Positions 7,301 through 34,002 of a stretch of 34,002 nucleotides of DNA are shown piece after piece. Both the position numbers and the translations under genes were made by a program. The stretch is from an uncultured Marixanthomonas sp. (GTDB lineage: Bacteria; Bacteroidota; Bacteroidia; Flavobacteriales; Flavobacteriaceae), in NCBI GenBank assembly GCA_913057965.1, contig CAJXPE010000003.1:1-34002 (forward strand), in the 5' to 3' direction. Position 1 is the stretch's first letter, and each line of letters opens with the position of its first letter. The notes below the pieces were generated by a model, which was given only the letters and a program-made list of their open reading frames with translations, was not told the origin of the DNA and searched no databases.

Positions 7301-8032
7301 CGGTAATGGAATATTGCCCTGCAACGGAAAAATATGATCCCGAAATGAAAATCGTCCTCCCTGAAAACCATTCGTGAACATCGGGTGATGCATCGCAAAA
7401 ATGATTATTTTATTAGCGCTTTTCTTTATTTCGCCTGCAATTTCAAGAAGTAACTTTTCACGGGTTTTAATTTGGCATTTATCATTCATATCGGGATTCT
7501 TGTCCCAATCTTCAATATACCATTGACTATCTACAGCTATTAATTGAATATTTTCTGAAAGCTCGATACTTTCTAGAGGGCAGCCATTGTTTGGGGTTAA
7601 AATATCGCCATCTTCAAAATATTCTTTTAAATAATCTTCAATTGTTTCTAACCCTTTGGTTTTGTTAAATCCCCAATCGTAGTTTCCGGGTAAAAAATAA
7701 GGGATGGCGCCTGTAGTTTTAGCGACTTGAATTTGAGGGTCGAGCTGTTTTTTTAGCTTTTCTTCTTCGCCATCCTCTGCATCGATATTGTCTCCCATAA
7801 AAAGAATACTTTTTTCTTTGGAAGAACTATTCGTAATTATTTCAGTTAAAACGGATAAAGTTGTTTTACTTTTTTCAGCGGCATTTCCGGTTATATAGAT
7901 GGTGTTTACAACTTCTTCTTTATCAAAAGTATCGTCAATTGTTCTATCCAGTGTTGTCTGTAGTTCTGATGTAGCACAGGAAACTAGAAACAAAAAGAAT
8001 AGTAATAAAAAATAAAAATTTTTAATTTTCAT
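4358..8032 (-). CDS. Lipoprotein with degenerate phosphoesterase, kinase-like domain and Omp85-type barrel (paralogue 1)
   Basis: From the ATG at 8032 this gives 1,224 residues. A lipoprotein signal ends in LVSC (Cys19). The calcineurin-like phosphoesterase domain (about 44-340) has lost metal ligands: GDAG is GNAA (49-52), GNHE is GNYD (116-119) and GHEH is GHEE (292-295), while GDN and AMHHP remain. It is probably inactive as a phosphatase. The middle domain keeps kinase-like motifs: GGGHQT (439-444), MRALKKSA (459-466), GDWDRH (601-606) and PRDRD (628-632). Acidic RTX-like motifs lie at 754-761, 804-813 and 827-836. The C-terminus is a beta-barrel with the Omp85 loop motif GLRGYR (1127-1132) and a terminal aromatic residue (KISY). 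A longer start at 8062 would overlap the upstream gene and spoil the signal peptide, so I reject it. It is the last gene of a three-paralogue operon, 19 nt after paralogue 2. Domain calls for the ends are firm; the kinase-like call is inference. Confidence 0.85.
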   Translation of the reverse strand: MKIKNFYFLLLFFLFLVSCATSELQTTLDRTIDDTFDKEEVVNTIYITGNAAEKSKTTLSVLTEIITNSSSKEKSILFMGDNIDAEDGEEEKLKKQLDPQIQVAKTTGAIPYFLPGNYDWGFNKTKGLETIEDYLKEYFEDGDILTPNNGCPLESIELSENIQLIAVDSQWYIEDWDKNPDMNDKCQIKTREKLLLEIAGEIKKSANKIIIFAMHHPMFTNGFQGGRFSFRDHIFPLQGNIPLPGVGTLITEIRSQGGVSKQNRFNYRYKQLMNELEILLNKPEHRILMVSGHEENLQYIEQGNFKQLVSGAASSTKPVSLSDNGIFSYGKQGFASIEITDKGSVWVSFYASEEKRDSSNLLFRRKIFQAVEEPETEPFPKEYPQSYTASVYDIEKVEKSDYFKSFWGQHYRDVYGTKVTAPTALLDTLYGGLEVVRPGGGHQTRSLRIVTKDGKEYNMRALKKSAVQLLETTTFNGIDAEKYFSNTVPEDLILDFYTAAHPYGAFAIPKLAKAAGVYYTTPELYYVPKQQRLGKYNKDYGDQLYMIVERPAKEYENRKSFGYPDNVESTDDLLEKLREDEDHTLDEATYIRARIFDMLIGDWDRHSDQWRWAEFEGTDGKLQFIPIPRDRDQVFANFDGSFLNLLRKLSGSVNQFGIYDEDIKDVSWFNAAGSKLDRALVKRSGKSVWVEEAKKMQQAIDEEILNKAFKDLPVEVQDTTSNEIKKSFLKRKENLVNIVERYYNEFIKFQMLTGTDKDDHFVINREPNGKTRITAYRIKDGEKGDVLFDRVFNSEETEEVWLYGLDDDDIFEVNGTADDAILIRLVGGQEDDVYNISEGKKIVVYDNKDDKVAIKNKGGARFKTTNIYEANSYDYKKKKSSASTVSLETLYNNDTGVSLKASYTSDSFNFIKNPYSKRTNISLDYNFQTTGFDVDFLKGFAAVVNDFNFVVDGRYTSLDYTENFFGFGNETINSEDELGLSYNRIQMERIHGGLALEKETDYGSFFQLKLNVNTLKLIENESNFLFDETPEEYTLRSYFAIPELTYTYKNYDANYFPTKGMFFSTTVGGIDNLKSNNITGFLKSSVLFYNSLLSNNRLVLETGASTHLQVGDRPEFYQTATLGAQTGLRGYREGRFKGFNSFLGKGDLLYTFQPIKTALFPLTIRIRGGYNIGRVWLKKDTSEKWYDAYGGGLDILWTNAIVGSFTAFKGEEDTRLSFGVKISY

Positions 8033-8051
8033 GTAGATTTTCTGAGGGTTC

Positions 8052-11000
8052 TTAAAAGTCAAATCCTAAGCCGAAGACTATACGAGATCCTTCAACGGAA
8101 TGAAATAAACTAGCTGAACCGGTTAAACCACCACTACCATTTATCCATAAACCACCGCCATACGAGTTGTGCCATTTTTCTGAATCCAATTCAGGTGTCC
8201 ATACACGACCTAAATCAGCTCCTCCGTAAAGACCTATTTGTAGTGGGATTAGACCAACTTTGATTTCGTCAAAGCTATATCGAACATCGGCACTTCCTAC
8301 TAAAGAAGATTTTCCTGTAAAACGTTCTTCCCTAAATCCACGTAGACCACTATTTGCACCTAAATTAATACCTTGAAAAAATTCGAACTGACTTCCGAAG
8401 TTAAACTTTGCTCGTACATTGGTTTTTAATACCCACTTTTTATTGGTCGTTAAACTATTATAAAAGCCAAGGCGGGTTTTTAAATACCCAAATACCCTTT
8501 TAAAATTATCAAAATTACCTGTTACCCCAGTGTTTAAATCAAACATCATCCCAATAGTTGGATTTCTGGGGTTATCAAAACTTCGATAATTATAAATACC
8601 TTCTAGGGTACCATACGGATCGAAGTTTTCAGTTTTATCTATCCTACTAATATTTGTTAACCCAGGTATATCATTGTTTACGCGTATTGCTTCAAACCTA
8701 CCTTGGAGTTTAAAAAAGCTACCAAAGTTTGAATTACGAAGCAAACCTGCTTTTACCATAAGGGTTTGCACTTGTACTCTGTTGTTTTCAAAACCTAAAT
8801 CATCTTCTGGGTTAAAGGTTTCATTCCCATACCCAAAGTAGTTTACCACATAACTAGGACTTGTAAAACGTGCTCCAAAACTAAGGTTGAGATCATCTTG
8901 AATGTTCGCTATCTCCCCTTCATAATTTATGTCAAAACTTCCGCTATCAAAATAATAACCAATATTTAAACTGTGGCGGCGTGAAAAAGGGTTTTGCTGA
9001 AAGCTATTTACTTGGTAAACATACTGCAGTCCGGCTCTGTAACCGTCGTCAGGATTGTAACCAAATGCAGCGGCATACGCCTGGGTGTTTTGAATGTTTT
9101 TTCGGTAATCGTACGTATTTAAGGTATATACATCGGTAAATCGTAAGTTCCCACCGTTTTTAACCTCAACGGTATTTTCTTTACTTTCATGATCATATAC
9201 CTTCACTCTTTTCCCTTCAATTAACCGGTATACGTCATTTCCGTGACCTCCAATTAACCGAACAAAAATTGGGTTATTACCCGTTCCAGTAACTTCAAAA
9301 GTATCTTCTTCATCTAATCCATAAATCCAAATTTGATTGGTTTCTGAAGCTAAAAAAGTTCGATCGGCCACTAACATTCCCCTATCTTCTGAAGGGAAAT
9401 TATAGGTTCTTACATTTGTTTTTCCATCAGGCAACCTAGTAATCTGAAAGAAATCTCTTTTATTGGTCCCTTCAATGGTTTGTAGTTTTGCTAAATAGGA
9501 ATAATATCTATCCGCAATGTCTTCAAGGTTGTCTCTTCGGCCTTTTAAAACAGTTACTATATCTTGTAAAGACTGATTGTTTACACTTTCGGGAATAGTT
9601 GAAAAAGCTGCATCAATAATAGAGTCTGAAATCGATTCTTGTAAGTTTTTTGCTGCATTAAGCCAGTCTTCTCTTCCAGATTTTTTTAAAAGAGCACGAT
9701 CTAAAATAATTCCTTCTTTATTAAACCATCGTATGTCTCTCAGGTTTTCACTATAGACTTGTTTTTCATAGGTTCTACCAAATATGGACCTAGCAATATC
9801 CAGAACATTTCCTTCAAAACTAGAAAAAGCATCGTCCCTATTTCTCGGTATTGGGACAAATACATTTACACTATCTTGTCGCAAGTATTCTGCCCATCTC
9901 CAATGGCCTGGTTCTCTATCCCAATCTCCCACGAGCATATCAAATAGGCGGGAACGTATAAAATTTTCCTCGTCTATGGATACCTCACGGCCTCTTCGTA
10001 ATTTTATAAGGATATCATCTGCTGTTTCAATATCATCTGGATATGCAAAAAGCGGCTCTCCTTTTGCACTTTCAGCAGGTTCTATGGTAAGCAAATAAAG
10101 AGCGTCTCCAAACTTTTCATTATAAACCCCTAGTTGCTCTTGTTTGGGTATATAAAAAAGTTCTGTTTGGTTATGGAAAATCCTTGCTGCCTTTGCCAAT
10201 TTAGGTAACGCAAGCGGCGCATAGGGATGTGTTGCTGTATAGAAATCTACTCCAAATGTATTTTTGGGTGTAACTTTAGAGTCTTCTTTATCTATTTCTT
10301 GTGTTTCTGTATCTTCTTCAAAAACTATTTTTTGAGAAAATTCCAAAGCATTTTTTTTCATGGCACGCATGCGGTACCTATTTCCTTTTTTGTCTTCTAA
10401 AATTAAAGCATCATATTCTTCATTTCCAGTTTCGCGTATCACGTGCAACCCACCATATAGTGTATCTAATGAAGTTATTTTTGCATTCACTTTATTAGTA
10501 TAAGCTTCTTCGTATTTAGCGCCCCAAATAGTTTTAAAGAATAGTGCTTCACTAACGCTATCTTGCTCGTAAATAGCAACTTCTTTAGTAGGTGAGTAAT
10601 TATTTGGCAATACCGAAGCGGGATAGGTTTTATTAGAAGGAAACACTTCTTTCTGAAATAAGAGTTTTGGTTGATTGTCTTCCGTTCTACCATAATATTT
10701 TACAAAAGAAGAACCATCTTCAAAAACATCGAAAACAGCAAAACCTTGGCCACCATAACTAAAAACTCCATTCTGACCTAAAGCAGCGTATGATGATTTA
10801 CCGCCAGAACCTGAAAGTATTTGCACCAAGCCATCTTTTTCTACATATTGAAGTGTGTGTTCGTGACCAGATGTAAAAACCACCCTACCGTGTTCTTTAG
10901 CCAAAGAACCCAAACGTTTCATCAATTTGTTGTAAAGCTCGTTATATCTATCTTGAACCGAAACCCCACCTTGAGAACGTATTTGTACTACTAATGAAGA

Positions 11001-11768
11001 TAAAATTGGTAATGGTAGGTTTTTCTGTGTTGGGTATAAATGTTTCTTTAATGCAAAATAGCCTCCGTGAGTTCCATTAGTGAACATAGGATGGTGCATG
11101 GCAAAAACAATAGTCTTATTTTTATTTTTTTCTAGTTCATTCGCTATTTCAATAAAAAGTTTTTCTCGTGTTTTTATCTCACAGTTTTGATTGAAATTTG
11201 GGTCTGTATTCCAATCTTCAAGATACCATTGTGTATCAAGAATTAGTAACTCAACATCCTTTGAAACAGAATAATTTACTAAAGGACATCCGCCAGTTGG
11301 TTGAAAAGCGGAAGAATCTAAATGTTTTTGAACATACTCTTGTTCACGTTTAAGTCCCGTTAACCCACCTGAATAATACTCATGATTTCCCGGAATAATG
11401 TAGGTTTGCCCCTTAAAGTCTTCTAGTGCTTTAAATTGGGCGTCCATATAATATTCACTAATTTCTCTATTTGGATGGCCTTCGGCGGGCATTCCATTAT
11501 CGTAAATATTATCACCTAAAAAGATAGCGTGATCACTTGATTTAGTTTGATGCTTTTTTATATAATTATTAAAGATAGTAAGCCCTTTACTCATTCCATT
11601 AGGTGGAGAAATACCCGCATCACCCACTAAATAAAAAGTCCGTTCTATTTTTTTTTCTGAAGGAAATGAAGGCTTTTCTTTCGGATTTTTATACTGAGGT
11701 TCGTAAGTGGCACAGGCACTGACTATAGTGATTAATATTAAAAAAAGAAAATTCTTTTTGAAACGCAT
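8052..11768 (-). CDS. Lipoprotein with intact phosphoesterase, altered kinase-like domain and Omp85-type barrel (paralogue 2)
   Basis: This protein has 1,238 residues from the ATG at 11768; the frame also opens at a TTG two codons earlier. The lipobox is VSAC (Cys19). All phosphoesterase motifs are intact and of purple-acid-phosphatase type: GDAG (49-52), GDNIYDNG (85-92), GNHE (127-130), MHHP (224-227) and GHEH (301-304). A two-metal phosphoesterase in the periplasm or at the surface is therefore likely. The middle domain is altered where its sisters are conserved: the glycine-rich loop is replaced by ETGNEEYD (446-453), DRH by DRE (617-619) and PRDRD by PRNRD (641-645). GGHGNDVYRL (840-849) is a near-perfect RTX nonapeptide. 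The barrel carries GLRGFR (from 1141) and ends in FDF. No surface-export acidic signal follows the lipid cysteine. It sits 22 nt after paralogue 3. The substrate is unknown. Confidence 0.87.
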   Translation of the reverse strand: MRFKKNFLFLILITIVSACATYEPQYKNPKEKPSFPSEKKIERTFYLVGDAGISPPNGMSKGLTIFNNYIKKHQTKSSDHAIFLGDNIYDNGMPAEGHPNREISEYYMDAQFKALEDFKGQTYIIPGNHEYYSGGLTGLKREQEYVQKHLDSSAFQPTGGCPLVNYSVSKDVELLILDTQWYLEDWNTDPNFNQNCEIKTREKLFIEIANELEKNKNKTIVFAMHHPMFTNGTHGGYFALKKHLYPTQKNLPLPILSSLVVQIRSQGGVSVQDRYNELYNKLMKRLGSLAKEHGRVVFTSGHEHTLQYVEKDGLVQILSGSGGKSSYAALGQNGVFSYGGQGFAVFDVFEDGSSFVKYYGRTEDNQPKLLFQKEVFPSNKTYPASVLPNNYSPTKEVAIYEQDSVSEALFFKTIWGAKYEEAYTNKVNAKITSLDTLYGGLHVIRETGNEEYDALILEDKKGNRYRMRAMKKNALEFSQKIVFEEDTETQEIDKEDSKVTPKNTFGVDFYTATHPYAPLALPKLAKAARIFHNQTELFYIPKQEQLGVYNEKFGDALYLLTIEPAESAKGEPLFAYPDDIETADDILIKLRRGREVSIDEENFIRSRLFDMLVGDWDREPGHWRWAEYLRQDSVNVFVPIPRNRDDAFSSFEGNVLDIARSIFGRTYEKQVYSENLRDIRWFNKEGIILDRALLKKSGREDWLNAAKNLQESISDSIIDAAFSTIPESVNNQSLQDIVTVLKGRRDNLEDIADRYYSYLAKLQTIEGTNKRDFFQITRLPDGKTNVRTYNFPSEDRGMLVADRTFLASETNQIWIYGLDEEDTFEVTGTGNNPIFVRLIGGHGNDVYRLIEGKRVKVYDHESKENTVEVKNGGNLRFTDVYTLNTYDYRKNIQNTQAYAAAFGYNPDDGYRAGLQYVYQVNSFQQNPFSRRHSLNIGYYFDSGSFDINYEGEIANIQDDLNLSFGARFTSPSYVVNYFGYGNETFNPEDDLGFENNRVQVQTLMVKAGLLRNSNFGSFFKLQGRFEAIRVNNDIPGLTNISRIDKTENFDPYGTLEGIYNYRSFDNPRNPTIGMMFDLNTGVTGNFDNFKRVFGYLKTRLGFYNSLTTNKKWVLKTNVRAKFNFGSQFEFFQGINLGANSGLRGFREERFTGKSSLVGSADVRYSFDEIKVGLIPLQIGLYGGADLGRVWTPELDSEKWHNSYGGGLWINGSGGLTGSASLFHSVEGSRIVFGLGFDF

Positions 11769-11790
11769 ATGCAATATTAGGATTCTTATT

Positions 11791-14700
11791 TTACATTGAA
11801 AAAGCTACCTTGAAAGAAAACTGAACACCTTCATCTGAAGTAAAAACGTTTACAGTACCACTTAACAAGTCGGCAGCATTAATCCAGAAACCTCCACCGT
11901 AGCTATTATGCCAAACATCTGAAGTATCGTTAGGCACCCAAACTCTACCCACATCATACCCTCCAAATATTCCTATTTGTACAGGCGTTACGGCTGTTCT
12001 AAAACTATTAAAGCTATACCGTAAATCAGCTCCTCCAGCCAAAGCACTACGACCCGTAAAGCGATCTCTTCGGTATCCTCTAAGTCCATAATCTCTACCC
12101 AATTGAGCGCCTTGGTAAAACTCATAGTTGTTACCCACGTTAAAATGTCCAACCGCCTTGGTTTTTAAAACAACCTTTTTGTCTTTTGTCAATGCATTGT
12201 AGAAGGTCAACTCCGGAATTACATATCCAAACACACGATCACTATCATCAATGTTTTGAGTTCCTCCTGCGGTTAAACTTGCGTGCATTCCTCTACCTGG
12301 GTTTGCTTTGTTATCATAACTTTCATAGGTGTATGTTCCTTCTGCTGAAGCAAAATACTTTCTTTCTTCAGCATCTGGGTATCCAATATCTGAAATAAAT
12401 CTGCCATCGGTATCTTCTACTTCTATTCCTTCAAATTTTGCTTTAAACTCAAAAGTACTTCCGTAGCGACCGTCTTTTTTAACACCTAATGCACCGCCGT
12501 AACTTCCTATACGTACTCGATTGTAATCCTTACCAAGATCATCTTCATCGTCAAGGTTTACAGTTTCATTTCCGAAGCCAAAAAAGTTTTCAGAAAAATT
12601 AGGATTGCGGTAATGACCTTCTACTAAGAAGTTCCAATCTGAGAATATGTTTGCAAACTCACCGCTATAGTTAATATCGAAACTTTCGGTAGCAAAGTAA
12701 TATCCAGCTTTAATACTGTGTTTTTGTTTAAAAGGGTTTTCTTGAAAACCGTGAACAGTGAATGTATCAGACAGACCAATTAAAAATCCATCATCTGCGT
12801 TGTAACCAAAAGCCGGTAATAATAAGTTTATGGTTTTGTTCTCTTTTATGTAATCGTAGGTATTGAAATTGTAATTATTGGTAATTCTAAAAGCTGCACC
12901 ACCTTTATTTTTAATAGTGTTTTTCTTACTTTTTTGATCATAAACCTTTATTCTACTTCCGTTTTCAATATCGTAGGTGTCATTGTTTTGCCCACCAACA
13001 ATCCGAATAAAAATAGGACGGCTGCCTTTTCCTTTTACTTCAAAAACGTCATCGTCATCTAAGCCGTAAATCCAAAGTTCTTTTGTATCATCTTTGGTAA
13101 AGGTTCTATCAATAATAAGGTCACCTTTTTCACCGTCTTTAATTCTATACGCTTTAATGTTTGTTTTTCCTTCAGGAAGTCGAGTAATTTCAAAAATATC
13201 ATCTTTATCGGTTCCTGTTATAATTTGAAGATTTGAGAAATAATCGTAATATTCTGAAGCAATTCTTACAATATTATCACGCCTCCCTTTTAAGTTTTCT
13301 TTAATTTCTTCAGCAGTTTCATCTTGCACTTCTTCCGGTAGGTCATTAAAAGCATTTTCTATCACTTCATCTGTTACATTTTCATGTATGTATTTAGCTT
13401 GGGCCATCCACTCTTCTCTTCCGTAATTTTCGGCTAAGGCGCGATCTAATTTTATTCCGGCACTATTAAACCATTTTGTATGTTTTAACTCTGGACCATA
13501 CACTTGAAATTGACGAGCCGTACTAAATAAAGCACGTACCGCATCTAACAATCCGCCATCAAAGTTTGCAAAAACCTGATCTCTATCTCTTGGGATTGGT
13601 GTGTATATTTTATTACCATCTTCATCTTCTTGCAGGGCAAAACGCCATTGATCGTTATGGCGATCCCAGTCTCCTATTAGCATATCGAACACACGAGCTC
13701 GTATGTATGCTTTTTGGTTAATTTTATTTTCTTCGTCGTCTCGTATTTCTTCTAAAACATCGTCGGTACTAATAATATCTTCAGCATAATCAAAAATAGC
13801 TTCGTCGTATTCTTCATCAGGACGCTCAACAATCATATATAGTTCATCTCCATACGTTTCATTAAACTTACCAAGCGCCTTTTGTTTGGGTACATAAAAT
13901 AACTTGGGGTTGGTGTGAAAAACTTTAGATGCATCGGCTAATTTTGGAATCGCAAACGCTCCGTAGGGATGCGCTGCCGTATAAAAATCAAGGATTAAAT
14001 CTTCGGGTAAAGTGTTTTTAAAGTCGCTCTCAATGACTTCATTTTTAAGTATTACAGTCTGTAAAAACTGAACAGCGCTCTTTTTTAACGCTCGCATATT
14101 ATAATCGTGTCCTTCTTTGTCCACTAAACGAAGTGAAACCGTTTGGTGACCTCCACCCGCTCGTTCAACGGTTAATCCACCATATAAGGTATCTAAATCC
14201 ACCGTGGGGGCCAACACTTCTTTTCCGTATGTTTTACGATAATGATCCCCCCAAACTGTTTTAAAGAAACTGCTTCGGTTTACCAAACTATCATTATACA
14301 CAGCTGATTTTACTGTTTTAGGAAATGTAGTAGGTAATTTTGAAGTATCATACTCCTTTTCTGGAGCAATTATTTCTTTTTCAAATAGCTTGGTTGAAGT
14401 TCCATCGTCTTCTGCTTTAAAAAATGCTACTGAAGTAGAACCATCTTTATAGATAGTTACTTTACTAAAACCTTGTCCGCCATACGAAAATTGTCCGTTT
14501 TCACCTAACGCAGCAGCTGTTGCTCCTCCTCCAGAACCTGAAATAACTTGTTTTGCATTGGCACCTTCGATATATTGTAACGATTGATCATGACCCGAAA
14601 CCAATACTAAGTTTTTATGGTCTTTTACCAACACTTCAACTCTTCCCATTAATTCATTGTAAGCCTCATTATATCTATCTTGTGATGAAATTGCTCCTTG

Positions 14701-15477
14701 ACTTCTTACTTGCGTGATCAATGACGCTACTCCCGGTATAGGTAATAAATGATTTATAGCAGGATATTTTCCACCATATTTACCATTGGTATACAATGGG
14801 TGGTGCATGGCCAAAATAATCGTTTTTTGCTTTGCTTTTTTAAGTTCTCCTTCTAGTTCAACTAAAAACTTCGCTCGGTTTTTAATCTGGCATTTATCAT
14901 TCATTTTTGGGTGTTTATTCCACCCTTCAATATACCATTGGGTATCAATCATTATTAAATGAACATTATCGCTTATTTCAACCTCTTCTATTGGGCATCC
15001 GTTATTTGGCTCTAATACAGAATCTGAATTTAACGCCTCTTTTAGCAAGTCTTCTTCCAACTCAAGTCCATCAACTCCAGATTTCCAGTCTAGGTTACCT
15101 GGTAATACGTTTACCGTTCCTTGAAAACCTTTAATTGCTGAAAGTTGTTTTTTAATAACTTCATTGGCTTTGGTTTTTGCTGGACCATCATCCTTAGGCA
15201 TTCCTTCTGGATAGAAGCTATTTCCAAGAAGTAATAAGTTTGCTTCTTCAGTATTTTCAGCCGCTATATATTTTTGAAAAGATTCTAATGCTAGATTTTT
15301 TTCAGTTTCACCTATAAAGCCCGCGTCTCCTAGTAAATAAAAGGTGCGTTCAATTTCTTTTCCATTCTCTGAAAAAGAAGAAGGTTGATATGTTGTTGAA
15401 TATTGAGGTTGGTAAGTAGCGCAAGAGATTAGCAGTAATCCCAGTGTAAAAGTTATAAAGATGTTAATTTTTTTCAT
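11791..15477 (-). CDS. Lipoprotein with degenerate phosphoesterase, kinase-like domain and Omp85-type barrel (paralogue 3)
   Basis: This is the first gene of the three-paralogue operon, with 1,228 residues from the ATG at 15477 (the frame opens at a TTG two codons earlier). The lipobox is LISC (Cys19), followed by ATYQPQY, close to ATYEPQY of paralogue 2. The phosphoesterase keeps GDAG (50-53) and MHHP (224-227) but has GNSFYPEG for GDNxYxxG (85-92), GNLD for GNHE (127-130) and GHDQ for GHEH (295-298), so two-metal catalysis is doubtful. The kinase-like motifs are intact: GGGHQT (441-446), MRALKKSA (461-468), GDWDRH (602-607) and PRDRD (629-633). RTX-like acidic motifs lie near 754-763 and 805-815. 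The barrel has GLRGYR (1131-1136) exactly 98 residues from the end, as in both sisters. A cysteine pair (161 and 196) is conserved in all three with identical spacing. No clear promoter was found in the 54-base gap to the divergent HD gene. Confidence 0.85.
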   Translation of the reverse strand: MKKINIFITFTLGLLLISCATYQPQYSTTYQPSSFSENGKEIERTFYLLGDAGFIGETEKNLALESFQKYIAAENTEEANLLLLGNSFYPEGMPKDDGPAKTKANEVIKKQLSAIKGFQGTVNVLPGNLDWKSGVDGLELEEDLLKEALNSDSVLEPNNGCPIEEVEISDNVHLIMIDTQWYIEGWNKHPKMNDKCQIKNRAKFLVELEGELKKAKQKTIILAMHHPLYTNGKYGGKYPAINHLLPIPGVASLITQVRSQGAISSQDRYNEAYNELMGRVEVLVKDHKNLVLVSGHDQSLQYIEGANAKQVISGSGGGATAAALGENGQFSYGGQGFSKVTIYKDGSTSVAFFKAEDDGTSTKLFEKEIIAPEKEYDTSKLPTTFPKTVKSAVYNDSLVNRSSFFKTVWGDHYRKTYGKEVLAPTVDLDTLYGGLTVERAGGGHQTVSLRLVDKEGHDYNMRALKKSAVQFLQTVILKNEVIESDFKNTLPEDLILDFYTAAHPYGAFAIPKLADASKVFHTNPKLFYVPKQKALGKFNETYGDELYMIVERPDEEYDEAIFDYAEDIISTDDVLEEIRDDEENKINQKAYIRARVFDMLIGDWDRHNDQWRFALQEDEDGNKIYTPIPRDRDQVFANFDGGLLDAVRALFSTARQFQVYGPELKHTKWFNSAGIKLDRALAENYGREEWMAQAKYIHENVTDEVIENAFNDLPEEVQDETAEEIKENLKGRRDNIVRIASEYYDYFSNLQIITGTDKDDIFEITRLPEGKTNIKAYRIKDGEKGDLIIDRTFTKDDTKELWIYGLDDDDVFEVKGKGSRPIFIRIVGGQNNDTYDIENGSRIKVYDQKSKKNTIKNKGGAAFRITNNYNFNTYDYIKENKTINLLLPAFGYNADDGFLIGLSDTFTVHGFQENPFKQKHSIKAGYYFATESFDINYSGEFANIFSDWNFLVEGHYRNPNFSENFFGFGNETVNLDDEDDLGKDYNRVRIGSYGGALGVKKDGRYGSTFEFKAKFEGIEVEDTDGRFISDIGYPDAEERKYFASAEGTYTYESYDNKANPGRGMHASLTAGGTQNIDDSDRVFGYVIPELTFYNALTKDKKVVLKTKAVGHFNVGNNYEFYQGAQLGRDYGLRGYRRDRFTGRSALAGGADLRYSFNSFRTAVTPVQIGIFGGYDVGRVWVPNDTSDVWHNSYGGGFWINAADLLSGTVNVFTSDEGVQFSFKVAFSM

Positions 15478-15531
15478 AAGCAAATTAAAGCGTAGTATTT
15501 TTAGTAATTTGGATGTTTAAAACAGAAATTT

Positions 15532-16734
15532 ATGAGCGATATCGTTGAGGCTGCAGATAATTTTGTACTGAATCTTTTTAAAGAAAAATTACCTAGCACG
15601 TTTGTTTATCACAATTATTCGCACACAAAACGTGTCTATAAAAGTATAAATGAAATTATTGAAGACTCCCAAATTTCTGTTAAAGATGCTACCGTCCTTA
15701 AATTAGCAGCTTTATTACACGATACTGGATACATTGTAAAGCGTGAAGGCCATGAAGAAGAAAGTGTGAAATTTGCCCGAGAGTTTCTAGAATCTAAAGA
15801 TGTTGAAAAGGATATTATTGATGGCGTTGAAAAATGCATCATGGCCACCAAGTTTAAAGACACAACCCCTAAAGATCACATGGAAGAAATCATGCGTGAT
15901 GCAGATTCTTCACATTTTGGAAAAGATTACTTTGAAGAGGCTAGTGAATATTTAAGGCAAGAATACATTGCACAAAACATTAGAAATTACACCCCCCAAG
16001 AGTGGCGAGATGAAAACATAGAGCTGCTTATTGATAAACATAAATTTTATACTCCTTACGCGTTAAAAAATTGGCAGCACACGAAACAAGAGAACCTTGC
16101 TGATTTGATTAACAAAAACAAAAAGATTAAGAAGAAGATTAAAAAAGAAGAGTTAAAAGCTCAACTTAAAGCAAAGTATAAGGATAAAAGTGTAGATCGT
16201 GGTATTCAAACCTTTTATAGAACGGCACTTAGAAACCACATTAAACTAAGTGATATTGCCGATACTAAAGCCAATATCCTGCTTTCAGTAAATGCAATTA
16301 TTATATCGTTAGTGCTTTCTAATTTACTTTCAAAGTTAGACAATCCATCTAACGATTATTTAATCATACCTACTGCAATCTTTGTTATTTTTAGTGCGAT
16401 TACCATGATTTTATCGGTAATAGCTACACGCCCTAACGTTACACGGGGTGAGTTTACAAAAGAAGACGTTGACAATAAAAGTGTAAACCTAGCCTTTTTC
16501 GGGAATTTCCACCGGATGGAACTGTCAGAATTTGAATGGGCAATGGATGAGTTATTAAAGGACCGGGATTACGTATATTCTTCTCTTACCAAAGATTTAT
16601 ACTTCTTAGGAAAAGTATTGGATAGAAAATACCGCATTTTACGATGGACTTATACCATATTTGTTACGGGTACGATTATATCAATATTAGCCTTTGCGCT
16701 TTCGTTCTATCTAGGTGGTTCGAGAATGTCTTAG
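15532..16734 (+). CDS. HD phosphohydrolase fused to PycTM (DUF5706) membrane domain
   Basis: This 400-residue two-part protein begins with an HD domain (about 20-180). Its metal-binding residues fit the family: H31, H63-D64 in LLHDTGY, H74 in EGHEE, and D123 in MRDADSSHFG. HD enzymes of this kind hydrolyse nucleotides or cyclic nucleotides. A very lysine-rich linker (about 195-219) leads to a C-terminal domain with the pattern DIADTKANILLSVNAII (241-257), two helices (about 247-266 and 277-297) and a third near the end (about 373-394). This matches the PycTM / DUF5706 domain, known as the membrane-disrupting effector of Pycsar cyclic-pyrimidine defence systems. No cyclase gene is nearby, so a defence role is not shown. 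The HD part may degrade a nucleotide signal sensed by the membrane domain, or the protein may have a housekeeping role. It overlaps the convergent GAF gene by four bases. Confidence 0.88.
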   Translation: MSDIVEAADNFVLNLFKEKLPSTFVYHNYSHTKRVYKSINEIIEDSQISVKDATVLKLAALLHDTGYIVKREGHEEESVKFAREFLESKDVEKDIIDGVEKCIMATKFKDTTPKDHMEEIMRDADSSHFGKDYFEEASEYLRQEYIAQNIRNYTPQEWRDENIELLIDKHKFYTPYALKNWQHTKQENLADLINKNKKIKKKIKKEELKAQLKAKYKDKSVDRGIQTFYRTALRNHIKLSDIADTKANILLSVNAIIISLVLSNLLSKLDNPSNDYLIIPTAIFVIFSAITMILSVIATRPNVTRGEFTKEDVDNKSVNLAFFGNFHRMELSEFEWAMDELLKDRDYVYSSLTKDLYFLGKVLDRKYRILRWTYTIFVTGTIISILAFALSFYLGGSRMS

Positions 16735-27851: not shown

Positions 27852-27859
27852 TACCTTTG
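27852..27859 (+). promoter_or_regulatory. Probable -7 promoter box of uvrA
   Basis: TACCTTTG is an exact TAnnTTTG that ends six bases before the uvrA ATG. A TTC at 27828-27830 stands where a -33 TTG would be (21-base spacing). The geometry predicts a leader of only a few bases. No SOS-type operator is recognisable. Confidence 0.45.
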
Positions 27860-27865
27860 CAGACT

Positions 27866-30700
27866 ATGGCAAAAAATGAAAATTTTATTGAAGTTTTAGG
27901 CGCACGTGTTCATAATTTAAAGGACATAGATGTTAAAATCCCAAGAGATAAATTAGTTGTCATTACTGGTTTGTCCGGTAGCGGAAAATCCTCATTAGCC
28001 TTTGACACCATTTACGCAGAAGGACAGCGCCGATATATTGAAACATTTTCGGCTTATGCCCGGCAATTCTTAGGAAACTTAGAACGTCCAGATGTCGACA
28101 AAATCGATGGCCTCTCCCCTGTTATTGCCATTGAGCAGAAAACCACAAGTAAAAGTCCGCGATCTACCGTTGGTACTATTACTGAGATTTACGATTTTCT
28201 TCGTTTGTTATATGCACGTGCCAGTGATGCCTACAGTTACAATACGGGTGAAAAAATGGTTAGCTACAGCGATGAGCAGATTAAAAACCTAATTATTGAA
28301 GAGTTCGATGGTAAAAAAATCAGCGTTCTCGCGCCCGTTATCCGTTCTAGAAAAGGACATTACCGCGAACTTTTTGAGCAAATTGCCAAACAAGGCTTTG
28401 TAAAAGTTAGAGTTGACGGCGAAGTAAAAGATATTGTAAAGGGAATGCGAACGGATCGTTATAAAACTCACGATATCGAGATTGTTATTGACCGCTTAAA
28501 GGTTTCTACGGAAACAGAAAACAGCAAACGCCTTAGCGAAACCATCAATACTGCTATGTATCATGGTGATGATGTGTTGATGGTTTTGGATAATGAAACC
28601 AATAAAGCTCGATTTTTTAGTCGTTCATTAATGTGCCCAACCACTGGGATTTCCTACCCGAATCTGGAGCCGAATAATTTTTCGTTCAACTCGCCTAAAG
28701 GCATGTGCCCCAATTGTAAAGGATTAGGAACTCTATACGAGGTAAATCTTAATAAAATCGTTCCAGATGATAGTTTATCTATTAAAAAAGGAGCATTAGC
28801 ACCGCACGGACCACAAAAGAAAAACTGGGTTTTCAAGCAATTGGAACTTATAGCTCAAAAATTTGATTTTGAATTAAGCGATCCTTTCAGTAAAATTCCA
28901 GAAGAAGCAAAAAAAATGATTTTCCACGGCGGAAATTCAGCTTTTGAAGTCGATTCAAAAACCCTCGGTATTACCCGAAAATATAAAATCGATTTTGAGG
29001 GAGTTGCCGCCTTTTTACAAAACACCTTCGAAGCAAACGAATCCCGATCGCTACAGCGCTGGGCAAAAGAATATATGGACAAAGTAGTCTGCCCAGACTG
29101 CGAAGGAAGCCGCTTACGAAAAGAGTCTTTGTTTTTTAAGGTAAACGATAAAAACATAGCCGAACTCGCCCATATGGATATCATCGAGCTGGCAAATTGG
29201 TTTAAAAACATAGAAAAAGACTTAAGTGAAACACAGCTTAAAATTGGTTCGGAAATTATAAAAGAAGTTCGTACCCGTATTCAATTTTTGGTCGATGTTG
29301 GGTTAACGTATTTGGCTCTCGACCGAAGCTCCAAATCCCTTTCTGGTGGGGAAGCACAACGTATTAGACTGGCAACACAAATTGGTTCGCAATTAGTTGG
29401 TGTGCTTTATATTCTCGATGAGCCTAGTATTGGTTTACATCAACGAGACAATGAAAAACTGATTGAATCATTGGTTTCCCTTCGGGATATTGGCAACTCC
29501 GTTCTTGTGGTAGAACACGATAAAGAAATGATTGAAAGCGCCGATTATGTGATTGATATTGGTCCTGCAGCTGGAAAACACGGTGGGGAAATTGTTTCAG
29601 AAGGCACTCCTTCGGAGATCTTAAAACATAAAACCCTTACAGCAGAATACCTAAACGGAAGCAAAGAAATTGAAATCCCCAAGAAAAGACGGGAAGGCAA
29701 TGGAAAAACTCTAAAACTCTCGGGTGCTACCGGAAACAACTTAAAAAATGTAACCGTTTCCTTTCCATTGGGAACCATGATCGGTGTTACAGGCGTTTCA
29801 GGAAGTGGAAAATCTACATTAATAAATGAAACCCTCTACCCTATTTTAAACGCTGAGATTTATAACGGTGTTAAAAAACCGATGCCTTATAAAAAAATAG
29901 AAGGCTTAGAACATCTTGATAAAGTGATTGATATCAACCAGTCGCCTATTGGCCGTACGCCACGTTCCAATCCGGCCACTTATACGGGTGTTTTTTCAGA
30001 AGTACGAAGTTTATTCGCCAAAATACCCGAATCTATGATTCGAGGCTATAAACCGGGACGTTTCAGCTTTAATGTAAAAGGAGGACGTTGTGAAACTTGT
30101 AAAGGTGCGGGTGTAAAGGTTATAGAAATGAATTTTCTGCCCGATGTATATGTAGAGTGCGAAACCTGCCAAGGAAAGCGTTTTAACCGCGAAACATTGG
30201 AAATTCGATATAAAGGCAACTCAATTTACGACGTATTGAGTATGACGATTAATGAATCTTGCGAGTTTTTTGAACACATCCCCAAAATTTACAGAAAACT
30301 AAAAACCATACAAGATGTTGGTTTGGGTTACATTACATTGGGACAACAATCCACAACACTATCTGGTGGAGAAGCACAACGCGTAAAACTGGCTACTGAA
30401 CTTTCAAAACGAGGAACTGGAAATACATTTTATATTCTTGATGAACCTACAACAGGATTACACTTTGAAGATATTAGAGTATTGATGTTAGTATTAAACA
30501 AATTAGTAAAAAAGGGAAATACTGTGCTTATTATAGAGCACAATCTGGACGTTATAAAAACGGTGGATTATATAATAGACATTGGTCCAGAAGGTGGAAA
30601 AAAAGGAGGAAAAGTAATTGCTAAAGGTACCCCAGAAGAAATTATTAAAAACAAAAAAAGCCATACCGCCCGGTTTCTTAAAAAAGAATTACATTCGTGA
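27866..30700 (+). CDS. uvrA: Excinuclease ABC subunit UvrA
   Basis: The 944 residues from the ATG at 27866 (MAKNENFIEV) are full length for UvrA. A TTG three codons earlier lies inside the promoter box and is rejected. UvrA is the damage-sensing ATPase of nucleotide excision repair, acting with UvrB in the cytoplasm. Both ABC ATPase modules are complete: Walker A GLSGSGKSS (35-43) and GVSGSGKST, signature LSGGEAQR twice (first at 492-499), and Walker B segments followed by DEPSIGLH and DEPTTGLH. Zinc-binding cysteine pairs are visible: CPNC (281, 284) with CPDC (409, 412), and CETC with CETC in the second half. No truncation or odd residue was seen. Confidence 0.98.
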   Translation: MAKNENFIEVLGARVHNLKDIDVKIPRDKLVVITGLSGSGKSSLAFDTIYAEGQRRYIETFSAYARQFLGNLERPDVDKIDGLSPVIAIEQKTTSKSPRSTVGTITEIYDFLRLLYARASDAYSYNTGEKMVSYSDEQIKNLIIEEFDGKKISVLAPVIRSRKGHYRELFEQIAKQGFVKVRVDGEVKDIVKGMRTDRYKTHDIEIVIDRLKVSTETENSKRLSETINTAMYHGDDVLMVLDNETNKARFFSRSLMCPTTGISYPNLEPNNFSFNSPKGMCPNCKGLGTLYEVNLNKIVPDDSLSIKKGALAPHGPQKKNWVFKQLELIAQKFDFELSDPFSKIPEEAKKMIFHGGNSAFEVDSKTLGITRKYKIDFEGVAAFLQNTFEANESRSLQRWAKEYMDKVVCPDCEGSRLRKESLFFKVNDKNIAELAHMDIIELANWFKNIEKDLSETQLKIGSEIIKEVRTRIQFLVDVGLTYLALDRSSKSLSGGEAQRIRLATQIGSQLVGVLYILDEPSIGLHQRDNEKLIESLVSLRDIGNSVLVVEHDKEMIESADYVIDIGPAAGKHGGEIVSEGTPSEILKHKTLTAEYLNGSKEIEIPKKRREGNGKTLKLSGATGNNLKNVTVSFPLGTMIGVTGVSGSGKSTLINETLYPILNAEIYNGVKKPMPYKKIEGLEHLDKVIDINQSPIGRTPRSNPATYTGVFSEVRSLFAKIPESMIRGYKPGRFSFNVKGGRCETCKGAGVKVIEMNFLPDVYVECETCQGKRFNRETLEIRYKGNSIYDVLSMTINESCEFFEHIPKIYRKLKTIQDVGLGYITLGQQSTTLSGGEAQRVKLATELSKRGTGNTFYILDEPTTGLHFEDIRVLMLVLNKLVKKGNTVLIIEHNLDVIKTVDYIIDIGPEGGKKGGKVIAKGTPEEIIKNKKSHTARFLKKELHS

Positions 30701-30789: not shown

Positions 30790-31479
30790 ATGAGAAACGA
30801 ACAGAAAAATAAAAATTGGAACTTAGTAAAAACAAATGATTCTTGGGCTATTTTCAAGATCATGGGCGAATTTGTAAGTGGTTACGAAAAATTGAGTAAA
30901 ATTGGTCCTTGCGTATCCGTTTTTGGTTCAGCCCGAACTAAGCCTGATCATGAATACTATAAATTAGCCGAACGAATTGCTGAAAAAATAACCAATAACG
31001 GTTATGGGGTAATAACTGGAGGTGGTCCCGGTATCATGGAAGCTGGTAATAAGGGAGCGCATTTGGCCGGTGGAACTTCGGTAGGACTGAACATTACACT
31101 ACCTTTTGAACAACACGATAATCCCTATATTGATGCTGACAAAAGCATTGATTTTGACTACTTTTTTGTACGCAAAGTAATGTTTGTTAAGTATTCGCAA
31201 GGTTTCGTAGTGATGCCCGGTGGTTTTGGAACACTTGACGAATTTTTTGAAGCTTTGACGCTTATACAAACACATAAAATAGATAAATTTCCCATCATTC
31301 TCGTAGGAACGAAATTCTGGGGTGGTTTATGGGACTGGGTTAAAGGAACCTTACTTGAAGCAAATAACAATGTGAGCGCAGAAGATTTAGAATTGGTACA
31401 TATTGTTGACAATGAGGATGAAGTCCTTGACATTTTGAATCAGTTTTATGGTGAATACAACCTTAGCCCTAATTTCTAA
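30790..31479 (+). CDS. LOG-family nucleotide 5'-monophosphate phosphoribohydrolase
   Basis: The 229-residue protein has the Rossmann-like fold of the LOG / TIGR00730 family. Family motifs are visible: SVFGSART (43-50), TGGGPGIMEAGNKGA (76-90) and PGGFGTLDE (143-151) with the catalytic R128-K129 region before it. LOG proteins release the base from nucleoside monophosphates, making active cytokinins in plants; related bacterial enzymes act in nucleotide salvage. The older annotation 'lysine decarboxylase' for this family is wrong. A 20-30 residue N-terminal extension precedes the core. It starts 89 bases after uvrA with no terminator between, so read-through from uvrA is possible. Confidence 0.92.
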   Translation: MRNEQKNKNWNLVKTNDSWAIFKIMGEFVSGYEKLSKIGPCVSVFGSARTKPDHEYYKLAERIAEKITNNGYGVITGGGPGIMEAGNKGAHLAGGTSVGLNITLPFEQHDNPYIDADKSIDFDYFFVRKVMFVKYSQGFVVMPGGFGTLDEFFEALTLIQTHKIDKFPIILVGTKFWGGLWDWVKGTLLEANNNVSAEDLELVHIVDNEDEVLDILNQFYGEYNLSPNF

Positions 31480-31602: not shown

Positions 31603-33955
31603 TTGAACATAAAGAACTTCATAACTGTTATCAGTTGCTTATTTGTGGTTACCATGTCGGCTCAATACGATATTTCTATTGAAGCAGAATTAAACCCCGA
31701 TACAAAAAGTATACAAATAAACCAGCAAATTGAGTTTACAAACAACTCAAATATAGTTTGGCATGAGGTTTATCTAAATGACTGGGCTAATAGTTTTTCC
31801 AATAAAACCACCCCTTTAGCAAAGCGTTTTGCTGAAAACTACAATAGTTCCTTTCATTTTGAAAAAAAAGAGGATCGAGGGAAAACAAATGTCCACAGCA
31901 TTACAGACACAGCAAACACACCTCTAAATTGGGAACGTGGCGAAGCCGCCGATATTATCAAAATCACACCCCAAAGCCCAATAATGCCAGGGGAGAAATT
32001 TACTGTTAATTTAATGTATTCCGTAAAGTTGCCAAGCACCAAATTTACTCGCTTTGGAGTAACGGAAAACAACAATTATAAATTGAAGTATTGGTATATT
32101 TCCCCTGCGGTTTTTGATAAAGATTGGCAAGTGTACAGTAATAAAAACACAGACGATCTTTTTTTAACACCTTCTTCTTTTTCAATAGATTTTAAAATTC
32201 CTCAGGAATACACCCTTACATCAGACTTTAATGTAATTTCTGAAACAATTTCTGAAAGCCAAAAAAACATCTTATTACAAGGTAAGCAACGAAATCAAGC
32301 TACTATTTATCTTGAAAAGGAACCTACTTTTGAAACCATTGAAACAGATAAAATTACCATTGTAACCAATTTAAAAGATGAAAAACTTTCGCCGCAAATT
32401 AGTGCGTTGTCAGTAGATAGAATTTTACATTTTTTAGATAATCAACTGGGTGAATATCCGTTTGAAAAAATGGTTATTAGTGAAGCAGATTACCGAAACA
32501 GCCCGGTGTATGGGCTTAACCAACTTCCAGATTTTATAAGCCCCTTCCCTGCCGGTTTTGAGTACGATATGGAACAACTTAAATCCATAACAAGAAAATA
32601 CATAGCGTCTTCGCTTTCACTTAATCCACGAAAAGACAGTTGGTTAATTGGGGCTTTGCAGATTCATTTAATGATGGAGTACGTAGACACCTATTATCCA
32701 AAGATGAAGATTTTAGGTACTTTAAGTGATTTTTGGGTTATTCGATGGGCACACGCTGCAGATTTAGAATTTAACGACCAATACCCTTTATTATATCAAA
32801 ATGTAGCTCGCAATAACTTACAACAATCTTTAACTACCTCTCGAGATTCGCTGCTTAAGTTCAATAAAAATATAGCAAACGATTATTATGGTGGGGCTGG
32901 GGTAAAATACCTTTCTGATTATTTAGGAAAGGAAACCGTTTCAAAAAGCATTAAAGAGTTTTATACTGAAAACAAGCTTAAACCCATTAAACCAACAGCT
33001 TTTCAAGAAACACTTCAGAAAAACACAGATCTACCTATCAATTGGTTTTTTACTGATTATATAGACTCCCGTACTACGATTGACTTCAGAATAAAAAACG
33101 TAGAAAAACAAGAGGATTCGCTTAGAGTAACCGTTAAAAACACTCGTAAAAACAGCATGCCTGTTTCCCTCTACGGAATTAACAAAGACAGTGTTGTTTT
33201 CAAAAAATGGTTGTTACCTATTGATAGCACCGCAACAGTTACGGTACCAAAACAAGATGTTAGAAAGCTCGTTTTAAATTATGAAAAAACAATCCCAGAG
33301 TATAATCAACGTAATAACTACAAAGCGGTAAAAGGACTGTTTAACCGGCCCTTTCAGTTTAGGTTATTTCAAGATGTAGGCGACTCCCGTTACAATCAGG
33401 TGTTTTTTATGCCAGAGTTTCAATATAACTTGTACGATGGTTTTGTAGTTGGGCCTAAAGTGTATAATAAAACGGTATTGCCTAAAGGATTTCATTACAA
33501 GCTAACGCCTCAAATTGGACTTAAATCCAATACTATTATCGGAAGCGGATCGCTCGTGTATACTCAAAATTTTGATAAAAAATCATTATACTCCATGCGA
33601 TATGGTTTTTCAGGAAGCTACTTTTCGTATGATCAGGACTTATTTTACAGGCGTTACACGCCGTTTATGACCTTTGCGTTCCGAAATAGAGATTTACGCG
33701 ACAATGAAAAGCAATTTATTAATCTTAGGAGTGTAAATGTAATACGGGACGAAAATCCAAACGATCCAGATCAAGAACCAAATTACAGTGTTTTCAATCT
33801 TCAATACGTATACTCAAACCCTAATTTAATAAACTATTTTAAAGGGGTGGTTGATTATGAAATTTCAGCGAAGTTTAGTAAGATTTCTACCACATTTGAA
33901 TACCGAAAACTCTTTCTAAATAACCGCCAATTAAATGTACGTTTCTTCGCAGGGG
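31603..33955 (+). CDS. M1-aminopeptidase-like protein lacking the zinc site, with probable C-terminal barrel; 3'-truncated
   Basis: About 784 codons are present before the adapter. The first ATG (31653) would start at MSAQYD and lose an obvious signal peptide; a TTG at 31603 gives MNIKNFITVISCLFVVTMSAQ, so I choose it. An ATT at 31588 would add HKTFL and is also possible. The N-terminal beta-rich domain (about 22-215, starting YDISIEAELNPDTKSIQINQ) resembles that of M1 peptidases. Where the exopeptidase loop, HExxH and WLNEG motifs should be, the protein has YGLNQLPDF (303-311), ITRKY (329-333) and WLIGALQIH (347-355), so zinc catalysis is unlikely. From about 570 onward, alternating strands and sentences such as RYNQVFFMPEFQYNLYDG suggest an outer-membrane barrel. 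The frame after 33955 is adapter translation (SYTHLRAHET) and not part of the protein. Confidence 0.72.
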
Positions 33956-34002
33956 CTGTCTCTTATACACATCTCCGAGCCCACGAGACCTCTCTACATC
34001 TC
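33956..34002 (-). other. Nextera adapter at right contig end (artefact)
   Basis: Bases 33956-33989 are the reverse complement of the adapter at 13-46. CTCTCTAC (33990-33997) is in the i7 index position, and ATCTC is the end of P7. Same library index as the left end. Together the two ends look like a 46-base terminal inverted repeat, but they are artefacts. Confidence 0.98.

Follow-up and report, generated by a model that had tools for sequence, protein, structure and literature searches.

The gene at the end of a 34,002-nucleotide stretch of DNA from an uncultured Marixanthomonas sp. (Flavobacteriaceae), referred to here as the window and consisting of one entire contig, encodes a protein in which a domain with the fold of the M1 aminopeptidases, devoid of the catalytic motifs, is followed by a part modelled as a 16-strand Omp85-type barrel. 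Computed here were the M1 fold, the loss of the catalytic residues, the barrel fold, the selection acting on the protein and its kinship with M1-barrel proteins that are catalytic. The protein probably holds other proteins rather than cutting them.

The open reading frame starts with TTG at position 31603 of the forward strand and meets no stop before the contig end; genuine homology ends at about 33954, and the end that the preliminary description had given to the gene does fall at this adapter junction. The terminal 48–50 bases, presumably those of a Nextera adapter, recur at 39 other places of the assembly. Of these, 22 fall in the opening 53 bases of a contig, and the last bases of a contig hold at least two others (contigs C57 and C160). 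The same adapter is present at positions 1–48 and 33955–34002 of the window, so that open reading frames reaching either contig end have artificial termini. Relatives in the Flavobacteriaceae have open frames of 930–984 aa. Since 158 residues follow RFFAG, the last motif of the window protein, in three congeners, about 153 barrel residues are missing from the window, and the full-length protein, judged by these relatives, has about 940 residues, of which 784 are encoded here. A single barrel-profile match was found in the window's genome, covering profile positions 1–232 of 377. The features are collected in Table 1.

Table 1. Features of the M1-pseudopeptidase/barrel gene and its surroundings (window coordinates)
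Feature	Coordinates	Strand	Basis or remark
uvrA-like neighbour, syntenic	27857..30700	+	upstream in 76 of the best 80 named loci
LOG-type neighbour, syntenic	30790..31479	+	upstream, same strand, in 78 of the best 80 named loci
M1-pseudopeptidase/barrel gene	31603..33954	+	784 residues, 3′ end cut by contig end
Signal-peptide-like N-terminus, residues 1–21, ending SAQ	31603..31665	+	by sequence; comparable hydrophobic segment in relatives
M1 domain I-like region, residues 21–256	31663..32370	+	model and fold match; lowest domain identity in Flavobacteriaceae (0.36)
M1 catalytic-domain-like region, residues 257–491, catalytic motifs replaced	32371..33075	+	alignment, fold match, profile comparison
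Former GxMEN substrate loop, now YGLNQLP, residues 303–309	32509..32529	+	alignment
HExxH position, now KSITR, residues 327–331	32581..32595	+	alignment
WxDEG position (third zinc ligand), now WLIGA, residues 347–351	32641..32655	+	alignment
Catalytic Tyr position, now Asp427 (within one column)	32881..32883	+	alignment
M1 domain III-like beta sandwich, residues 492–561	33076..33285	+	model
N-terminal part of Omp85-type barrel, about 220 of about 375 residues	33298..33954	+	barrel profile, predicted models, fold matches
Sequencing adapter, non-genomic	33955..34002	.	repeats at 39 further places of the assembly

The Pfam profile of the M1 peptidases, PF01433, scores the window protein below its curated cut-off (15.1 vs. 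27.7 bits) and reaches E ≤ 0.01 in 13 of the 30 homologues scanned, with a best value of 3.2e-5. With hhalign, a profile of 78 named homologues (residues 20–562; the cut sequences L092 and L120 left out) reached 99.2% against soluble HExxH-bearing M1 proteins from the genus of the window and 100% against the catalytic M1-barrel proteins, compared with 0.1% for column-reversed controls. The full-length structural model is an AlphaFold2 prediction of the Aequorivita aquimaris homologue L057, which is 64–65% identical (pLDDT 77.9, pTM 0.66). Foldseek led from this model to the M1 aminopeptidases (E 2.0e-18), and VIA aligned 430 residues with tricorn factor F3 (3q7j; Z 22.3, rmsd 3.3) and gave Z of about 20–22 for IRAP, ERAP1/2 and LTA4H, the match spanning model residues 19 to about 564. 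The M1 aminopeptidase fold of residues 20–562 or so is thus firmly predicted, by profile–profile comparison as well as by the modelled structure, and the earlier view of an M1-like N-terminal half holds, the matches pointing to M1 and not to an unrelated fold. Direct searches returned little: phmmer with the window protein gave kinase matches only (E 0.38–0.48), NCBIfam offered no family for it, and neither the barrel profile nor the profile of full-length homologues matched a PDB sequence at E ≤ 1, so that relatives in the PDB are reachable by fold only. Two viral models matched at E ≤ 0.001, one being an M1-like Tupanvirus enzyme and the other a protein of Fadolivirus.

A set spacing between HExxH and a distal Glu belongs to the M1 zinc site. 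In an alignment to intact relatives, GGMEYP falls on YGLNQLP, HEVGH on KSITR and WMDEG on WLIGA; the window protein therefore carries KSITR and WLIGA where M1 enzymes have the HExxH and distal Glu of the zinc site, and YGLNQLP and an Asp at the columns of the GxMEN-type substrate motif and the catalytic Tyr. No HExxH occurs elsewhere in its chain. The preliminary description had correctly taken WLIGA to stand in place of the third-ligand motif WxDEG, and it was right that HExxH is replaced; however, it had placed the replacement at ITRKY, while the aligned residues are K327-S-I-T-R331, two residues earlier. Its core claim of a pseudopeptidase domain on a barrel survives, as neither an unrelated fold nor an intact zinc motif anywhere in the chain was found.

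Whether the loss is general, a question raised in the same description, was addressed with two sets of homologues. The first consists of named loci, the best 80 of 572 confirmed, which were fetched with two peptide patterns (the former substrate loop and the loop at the L6 position of the barrel) and whose titles almost all name Flavobacteriaceae or one of its genera, those of L080 and L081 naming only Flavobacteriales and that of L083 only Bacteroidetes. The second is a motif-independent set of 58 Flavobacteriaceae rows from whole-genome searches, 34 from genomes of the family and 24 from a barrel-profile search, the latter short of the first residues; L135, the same gene as L029, was omitted. 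HExxH is absent from all 58 of these rows (0/58) and from the former site in the best 80 named loci (0/80), with a single HERGH in L090 at residue 88, outside that site. All 58 rows read YGx[NS]xLP, 39 of them exactly YGLNQLP, and none of the 35 rows in the main pseudo group has lost the Trp of WxDEG. From these alignments, the loss of the catalytic site is general in the Flavobacteriaceae. The window's genome has four other M1 genes (PF01433), each with HExxH, and a second M1 match of about 620 aa occurs in most of the 37 Flavobacteriaceae genomes, its site having been checked in two.

The preliminary description had read the part after residue 570 as outer-membrane strands, in keeping with the 16 strands seen in both predicted models, that of full-length L057 and that of the barrel alone, which was built from 39 named homologues with moderate confidence (pLDDT 71.8, pTM 0.72). 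The C-terminal part is accordingly modelled as a 16-strand Omp85-type barrel. In a Foldseek search with the barrel, 47 of the first 50 rows are Omp85 proteins or complexes (TamA, BamA, Sam50, FhaC; best E 1.3e-5) and the remaining three are LptD entries (ranks 35, 49 and 50). VIA gave Z 17.4 for FhaC, 16.9 for Deinococcus BamA and 16.3 for F. johnsoniae BamA, with AlgE and porins only about 3 Z units lower (14.2–14.6). One long loop lies between strands 11 and 12 (residues 789–843 of L057), a position that we take to be that of L6 in Omp85 proteins; it reads DYLFDYNYYGRSE-like, with GRSE instead of VRGF/Y, and model confidence there is mostly below 50. PF01103 matched neither the window protein nor any of 18 barrels at E ≤ 1, and no POTRA domain is present, the N-terminal part having the M1 fold; some Omp85 subfamilies also have no POTRA. 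In hhalign, the barrel reached only 0.5–2.9% against Omp85 sets of the same genomes, labelled BamA-like and TamL-like by eye, with reversed controls at 0.2–0.6%, whereas the Omp85 sets among themselves gave 21, 76 and 100%.

Homologues along the whole length of the protein are present in 35 of the 37 Flavobacteriaceae genomes, the window's included, and absent from two (G022 and G029). Barrel-profile matches were obtained in 50 of 296 genomes of the phylum and in 153 of 296 genomes of the order. The regions fetched from other orders of the class had intact frames in 14 of 15 cases (the broken one was dropped), and all 14 carry HExxH, with WxDEG in 13 and YLDEG in one. Among 81 aligned M1-barrel rows, the catalytic site is intact in 30 (16 from the same order, 14 from other orders) and missing from 51 (22 from the Flavobacteriaceae, 29 from seven other families of the order). 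The intact rows are uniform, with HE[VIL]GHNW and the Tyr in 30/30, MEYP in 29, and WxDEG in 29 with YLDEG in one. By this comparison, other members of the class have this architecture in a catalytic version, which goes beyond what the earlier reading of the window alone had in view. A tree computed from the barrel, with the site excluded and without L177 (broken frame) and two soluble M1 proteins, has long branches, no bootstrap and an arbitrary root; on it the intact or dead label needs three changes, of which the starred branches force only one. One further family, f15, contributes both L194, which falls among the Flavobacteriaceae rows, and L195, which is intact. The direction of change is read as loss because the zinc site is general in M1 enzymes, and the sequences thus place the origin of the dead form inside a catalytic M1-barrel family.

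Two loops stand out by their conservation. In the 80-locus set, entropies were 0.67 for the substrate loop and 0.71 for the L6-position loop, values that are inflated because both loops served as fetch patterns. Recomputed on the 58 motif-independent rows they become 1.08 and 0.90, against reference entropies in the same rows of 1.66 for domain II and 1.77 for strands 599–790, and the conservation of both loops stands. In these rows, the most conserved 19-residue segments of the whole chain lie in the L6-position loop (mean entropy 0.51 at residue 800), in which 21 of 53 positions are conserved at 95% or more. Within the M1-like part, the former substrate loop ranks first (start 296, entropy 0.97); the fixed 19-residue stretch at 299 ranks 71st of 828 segments of the chain, many better ones lying in the L6 loop.

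Mean pairwise identities were compared between site and barrel; the row groups differ in depth, so that only ratios within a group are comparable. Intact rows have 0.80 in the site and 0.38 in the barrel when they come from the order, and 0.64 and 0.24–0.30 when they come from other orders. The pseudo groups overall have 0.49, 0.40 and 0.21 in the site and 0.43–0.59 in the barrel. In the Flavobacteriaceae pseudo rows, domains I–III are at 0.36, 0.44 and 0.40, the site at 0.49 and the two barrel parts at 0.44 and 0.59, and in pseudo group f7 the corresponding values are 0.19, 0.27 and 0.35, 0.21, and 0.45–0.50. By these identities, the peptidase is the better conserved half in intact members and the barrel in dead members, modestly so in the Flavobacteriaceae. 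As catalysis was lost, constraint thus moved towards the barrel, strongly in f7 but only modestly in the Flavobacteriaceae. However, the site segment of the Flavobacteriaceae (0.49) lies above the first barrel part (0.44), which argues against a strong shift there. At the f7 loci (L046, L050 and L182–L193), the dead domains I and II are at 19–27% mean identity, the site residues vary widely between genera, and the barrel is kept. For six congeners compared with the window, dN in the former site was 0.02–0.07 and dS above 1 or saturated, so that dN/dS ratios, some with infinite dS, are rough; dN among congeners is lowest in the former site and the barrel. As judged from these substitutions, the protein is kept by selection.

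What the protein does can be proposed tentatively, at a confidence somewhat below even: it would be a periplasmic pseudopeptidase that holds client chains beneath an Omp85-like barrel and has a role in placing the client. A domain IV is present in many M1 enzymes, and in BamA and TamA the barrel mouth is occupied by POTRA domains. In the window protein, an Omp85-type barrel would follow three M1 domains, in place of domain IV, and the putative signal peptide together with the barrel would put the M1-like part in the periplasm, at the barrel mouth. The former substrate groove, with its conserved YGxNxLP loop, may hold an extended chain or edge strand of the client and hand the client to the barrel; there, a lateral gate and the conserved loop at the L6 position could help to place or move it in the outer membrane. 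Catalytic relatives would, in addition, use this groove for trimming or degrading the client. The conservation of the former substrate loop seen in the alignments is in keeping with binding instead of cleavage.

By analogy, such a protein might work like BepA, a periplasmic M48 metallopeptidase acting on LptD at BAM, with the docking at an assembly machine retained and the proteolysis removed. In BepA, an edge strand next to the active site is described as serving both proteolysis and a chaperone-like activity on LptD (PMC8423444). The likeness, a peptidase fold that assists barrel assembly through an edge strand, is one of function only; unlike the window protein, BepA belongs to family M48, is a proteolytic zinc metallopeptidase and has no barrel. 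A study of BAM in F. johnsoniae names BamA, D, G, H, M and P, with no M1-fold subunit among those named (PMC12611786), and a stable BAM subunit is therefore not indicated. A wider proposal is possible, if rather doubtful: the architecture may represent an undescribed Bacteroidota assembly or translocation factor of Omp85 type in which an M1 domain replaces POTRA, and which in much of the Flavobacteriales has become a dedicated client-binding pseudopeptidase with constraint moved towards the barrel, so that one family would hold trimming and holding versions.

Other readings of the same data have to be weighed against client holding. It is unlikely, though well worth considering, that the barrel only anchors the protein or passes small solutes while the dead M1 domain acts as a receptor for a peptide, glycan or partner, with no assembly role. 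A conserved non-catalytic groove loop would suit any ligand, and the drift of M1 domains I and II in f7 (0.19, 0.27) beside a kept barrel (0.45–0.50) suggests that the two halves need not cooperate. However, among the fold matches of the barrel, insertases and translocases come ahead of porins, no stretch of the protein is better conserved than the L6-position loop, and a mere anchor does not explain why the barrel is the half retained in f7. Export of the M1 domain through the barrel to the cell surface, where it would bind peptides or foreign proteins, has been discussed for patatin-Omp85 proteins, whose layout of an N-terminal enzyme domain and an Omp85-like barrel is similar (PMC4104836), and catalytic relatives could in that case feed on surface peptides; a folded domain of some 540 residues would, however, need to cross the barrel, and no release site was seen, which makes this reading improbable.

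A regulator resembling a prozyme, which would bind and tune the catalytic M1 paralogues of the same cell, is rather improbable. The four HExxH-bearing M1 genes of the genome supply candidate partners, and regulation of active partners by pseudo-paralogues has precedents elsewhere (PMC5201418), but M1 enzymes are not known to require a partner of this kind, and the genes showed no linkage. Some pseudoenzymes rely on relocated residues (PMC10211241). Continued catalysis, through a site that has moved or is of another kind, would suit the finding that D414 is invariant and H383 almost invariant in a 30-row alignment of homologues selected by motif. A moved metal site in domain II was looked for in the 58-row and 35-row sets and not found: in the 58 motif-independent Flavobacteriaceae rows, none of the His, Asp, Glu or Cys residues of domain II reaches 90% conservation, and among the 35 rows that form the main pseudo group none reaches 85%, a level at which 15 other columns are kept, so that continued catalysis is very improbable. 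Decay into a functionless relic, which the lost catalytic residues and the very variable f7 sites might suggest, is disfavoured and barely credible given the open frames in 35 of 37 family genomes, the low dN between congeners, with its smallest values in the former site and in the barrel, and the conserved loops.

Several known systems resemble the window protein in part. With the M1 aminopeptidases it shares the fold over model residues 19–564, but it differs from them in having no GxMEN, HExxH, WxDEG glutamate or catalytic Tyr and in continuing into a membrane barrel after domain III. TAF2 and other M1 pseudopeptidases use a non-catalytic M1 fold as a scaffold; these are eukaryotic and nuclear and have no barrel. 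The catalytic M1-barrel proteins of the same class have the same architecture, a similar length and a homologous barrel, but keep the zinc site and the Tyr. The likeness to the Omp85/TpsB superfamily (BamA, TamA/TamL, Sam50, FhaC) consists of the 16-strand barrel, the fold match in the models and the long conserved loop between strands 11 and 12, whereas POTRA, a PF01103 match and VRGF/Y are absent and an M1-fold domain is present instead. Heinz and Lithgow (2014) described Omp85 subfamilies with patatin and 'Metallo' (PF00149) domains (PMC4104836), in which an enzyme domain likewise precedes an Omp85-type barrel; these domains are PF00149 or patatin, however, and PF00149 has no match in the window protein. 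That article calls PF00149 a metalloprotease domain, and Pfam calls it a calcineurin-like phosphoesterase; the word 'peptidase' is absent from its main text, and no M1 subfamily was seen there (PMC4104836). The elastase FP0506 was considered as a family member and rejected, being a 296-aa lipoprotein (PMC6414381).

Among the papers listed in searches of an open literature library, which lacks most subscription papers and preprints, no description of an M1-barrel protein was found, nor was a published name found for the catalytic ones. Outer-membrane assembly in the Bacteroidota has been shown only recently to use parts of its own (PMC12611786), and a widespread Flavobacteriaceae barrel with a dead peptidase at the POTRA position would add an unstudied candidate to it. 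Most sampled genomes of one large marine and soil bacterial family carry this dead peptidase on a barrel, and its role is now testable: with catalytic and dead members of one architecture, the family is a natural experiment on the change from membrane peptidase to binding protein, and the YGxNxLP and GRSE loops are clear sites to mutate.

Upstream of the gene lie a LOG-type gene, which we take to be TIGR00730-like, and a gene that by its sequence is presumably uvrA. Strict synteny (uvrA within 4 kb, LOG within 0–1.5 kb) was found in 70 of the best 80 named loci. Neither the 18 intact genes examined nor the pseudo genes of f2, f5, f7, f12 and f13 were found to have this pair beside them, so that the synteny points to no pathway, and 20 neighbour proteins scanned outside the Flavobacteriaceae had no common theme. 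At L057, a 414-aa open reading frame (8724–9968 of that locus), absent from the window, lies between the LOG and M1-barrel genes; by eye it is endonuclease/exonuclease/phosphatase-like with a sorting-tail-like end, and at other named loci the LOG and M1-barrel genes are separated by a gap of comparable length, about 1.15–1.28 kb. Directly upstream of intact M1-barrel genes, a PspC/toast-rack gene is present at two loci of the same order (L047, 1330–3075; L048, 1450–3078) and a second M1-domain open reading frame at L169 (806–2083).

Elsewhere in the window, three tandem proteins of 1230–1240 aa are encoded on the reverse strand at 4358–15483. The preliminary description had drawn a parallel with these as pseudophosphatase-barrel proteins, which holds only in part, probably for two of the three. 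The middle one (8052–11774) matches PF00149 over the cut-off and keeps GNHE and GHEH, and is by these motifs probably an active enzyme. For the other two, Pfam gave nothing at E ≤ 0.01, and neither GNH[DE] nor GHxH is present in residues 1–450, one of the two retaining GDN; one probably active and two probably inactive phosphatase-barrel paralogues may thus stand side by side. An hhalign comparison of their barrels with the M1-type barrel, an insensitive test, gave no link (1.9%). Adjoining these genes, a gene on the forward strand at 15532–16734 encodes an HD domain followed by a Pycsar-effector transmembrane domain (PF18967, E 2.7e-37), and its product may be an anti-phage or signalling effector.
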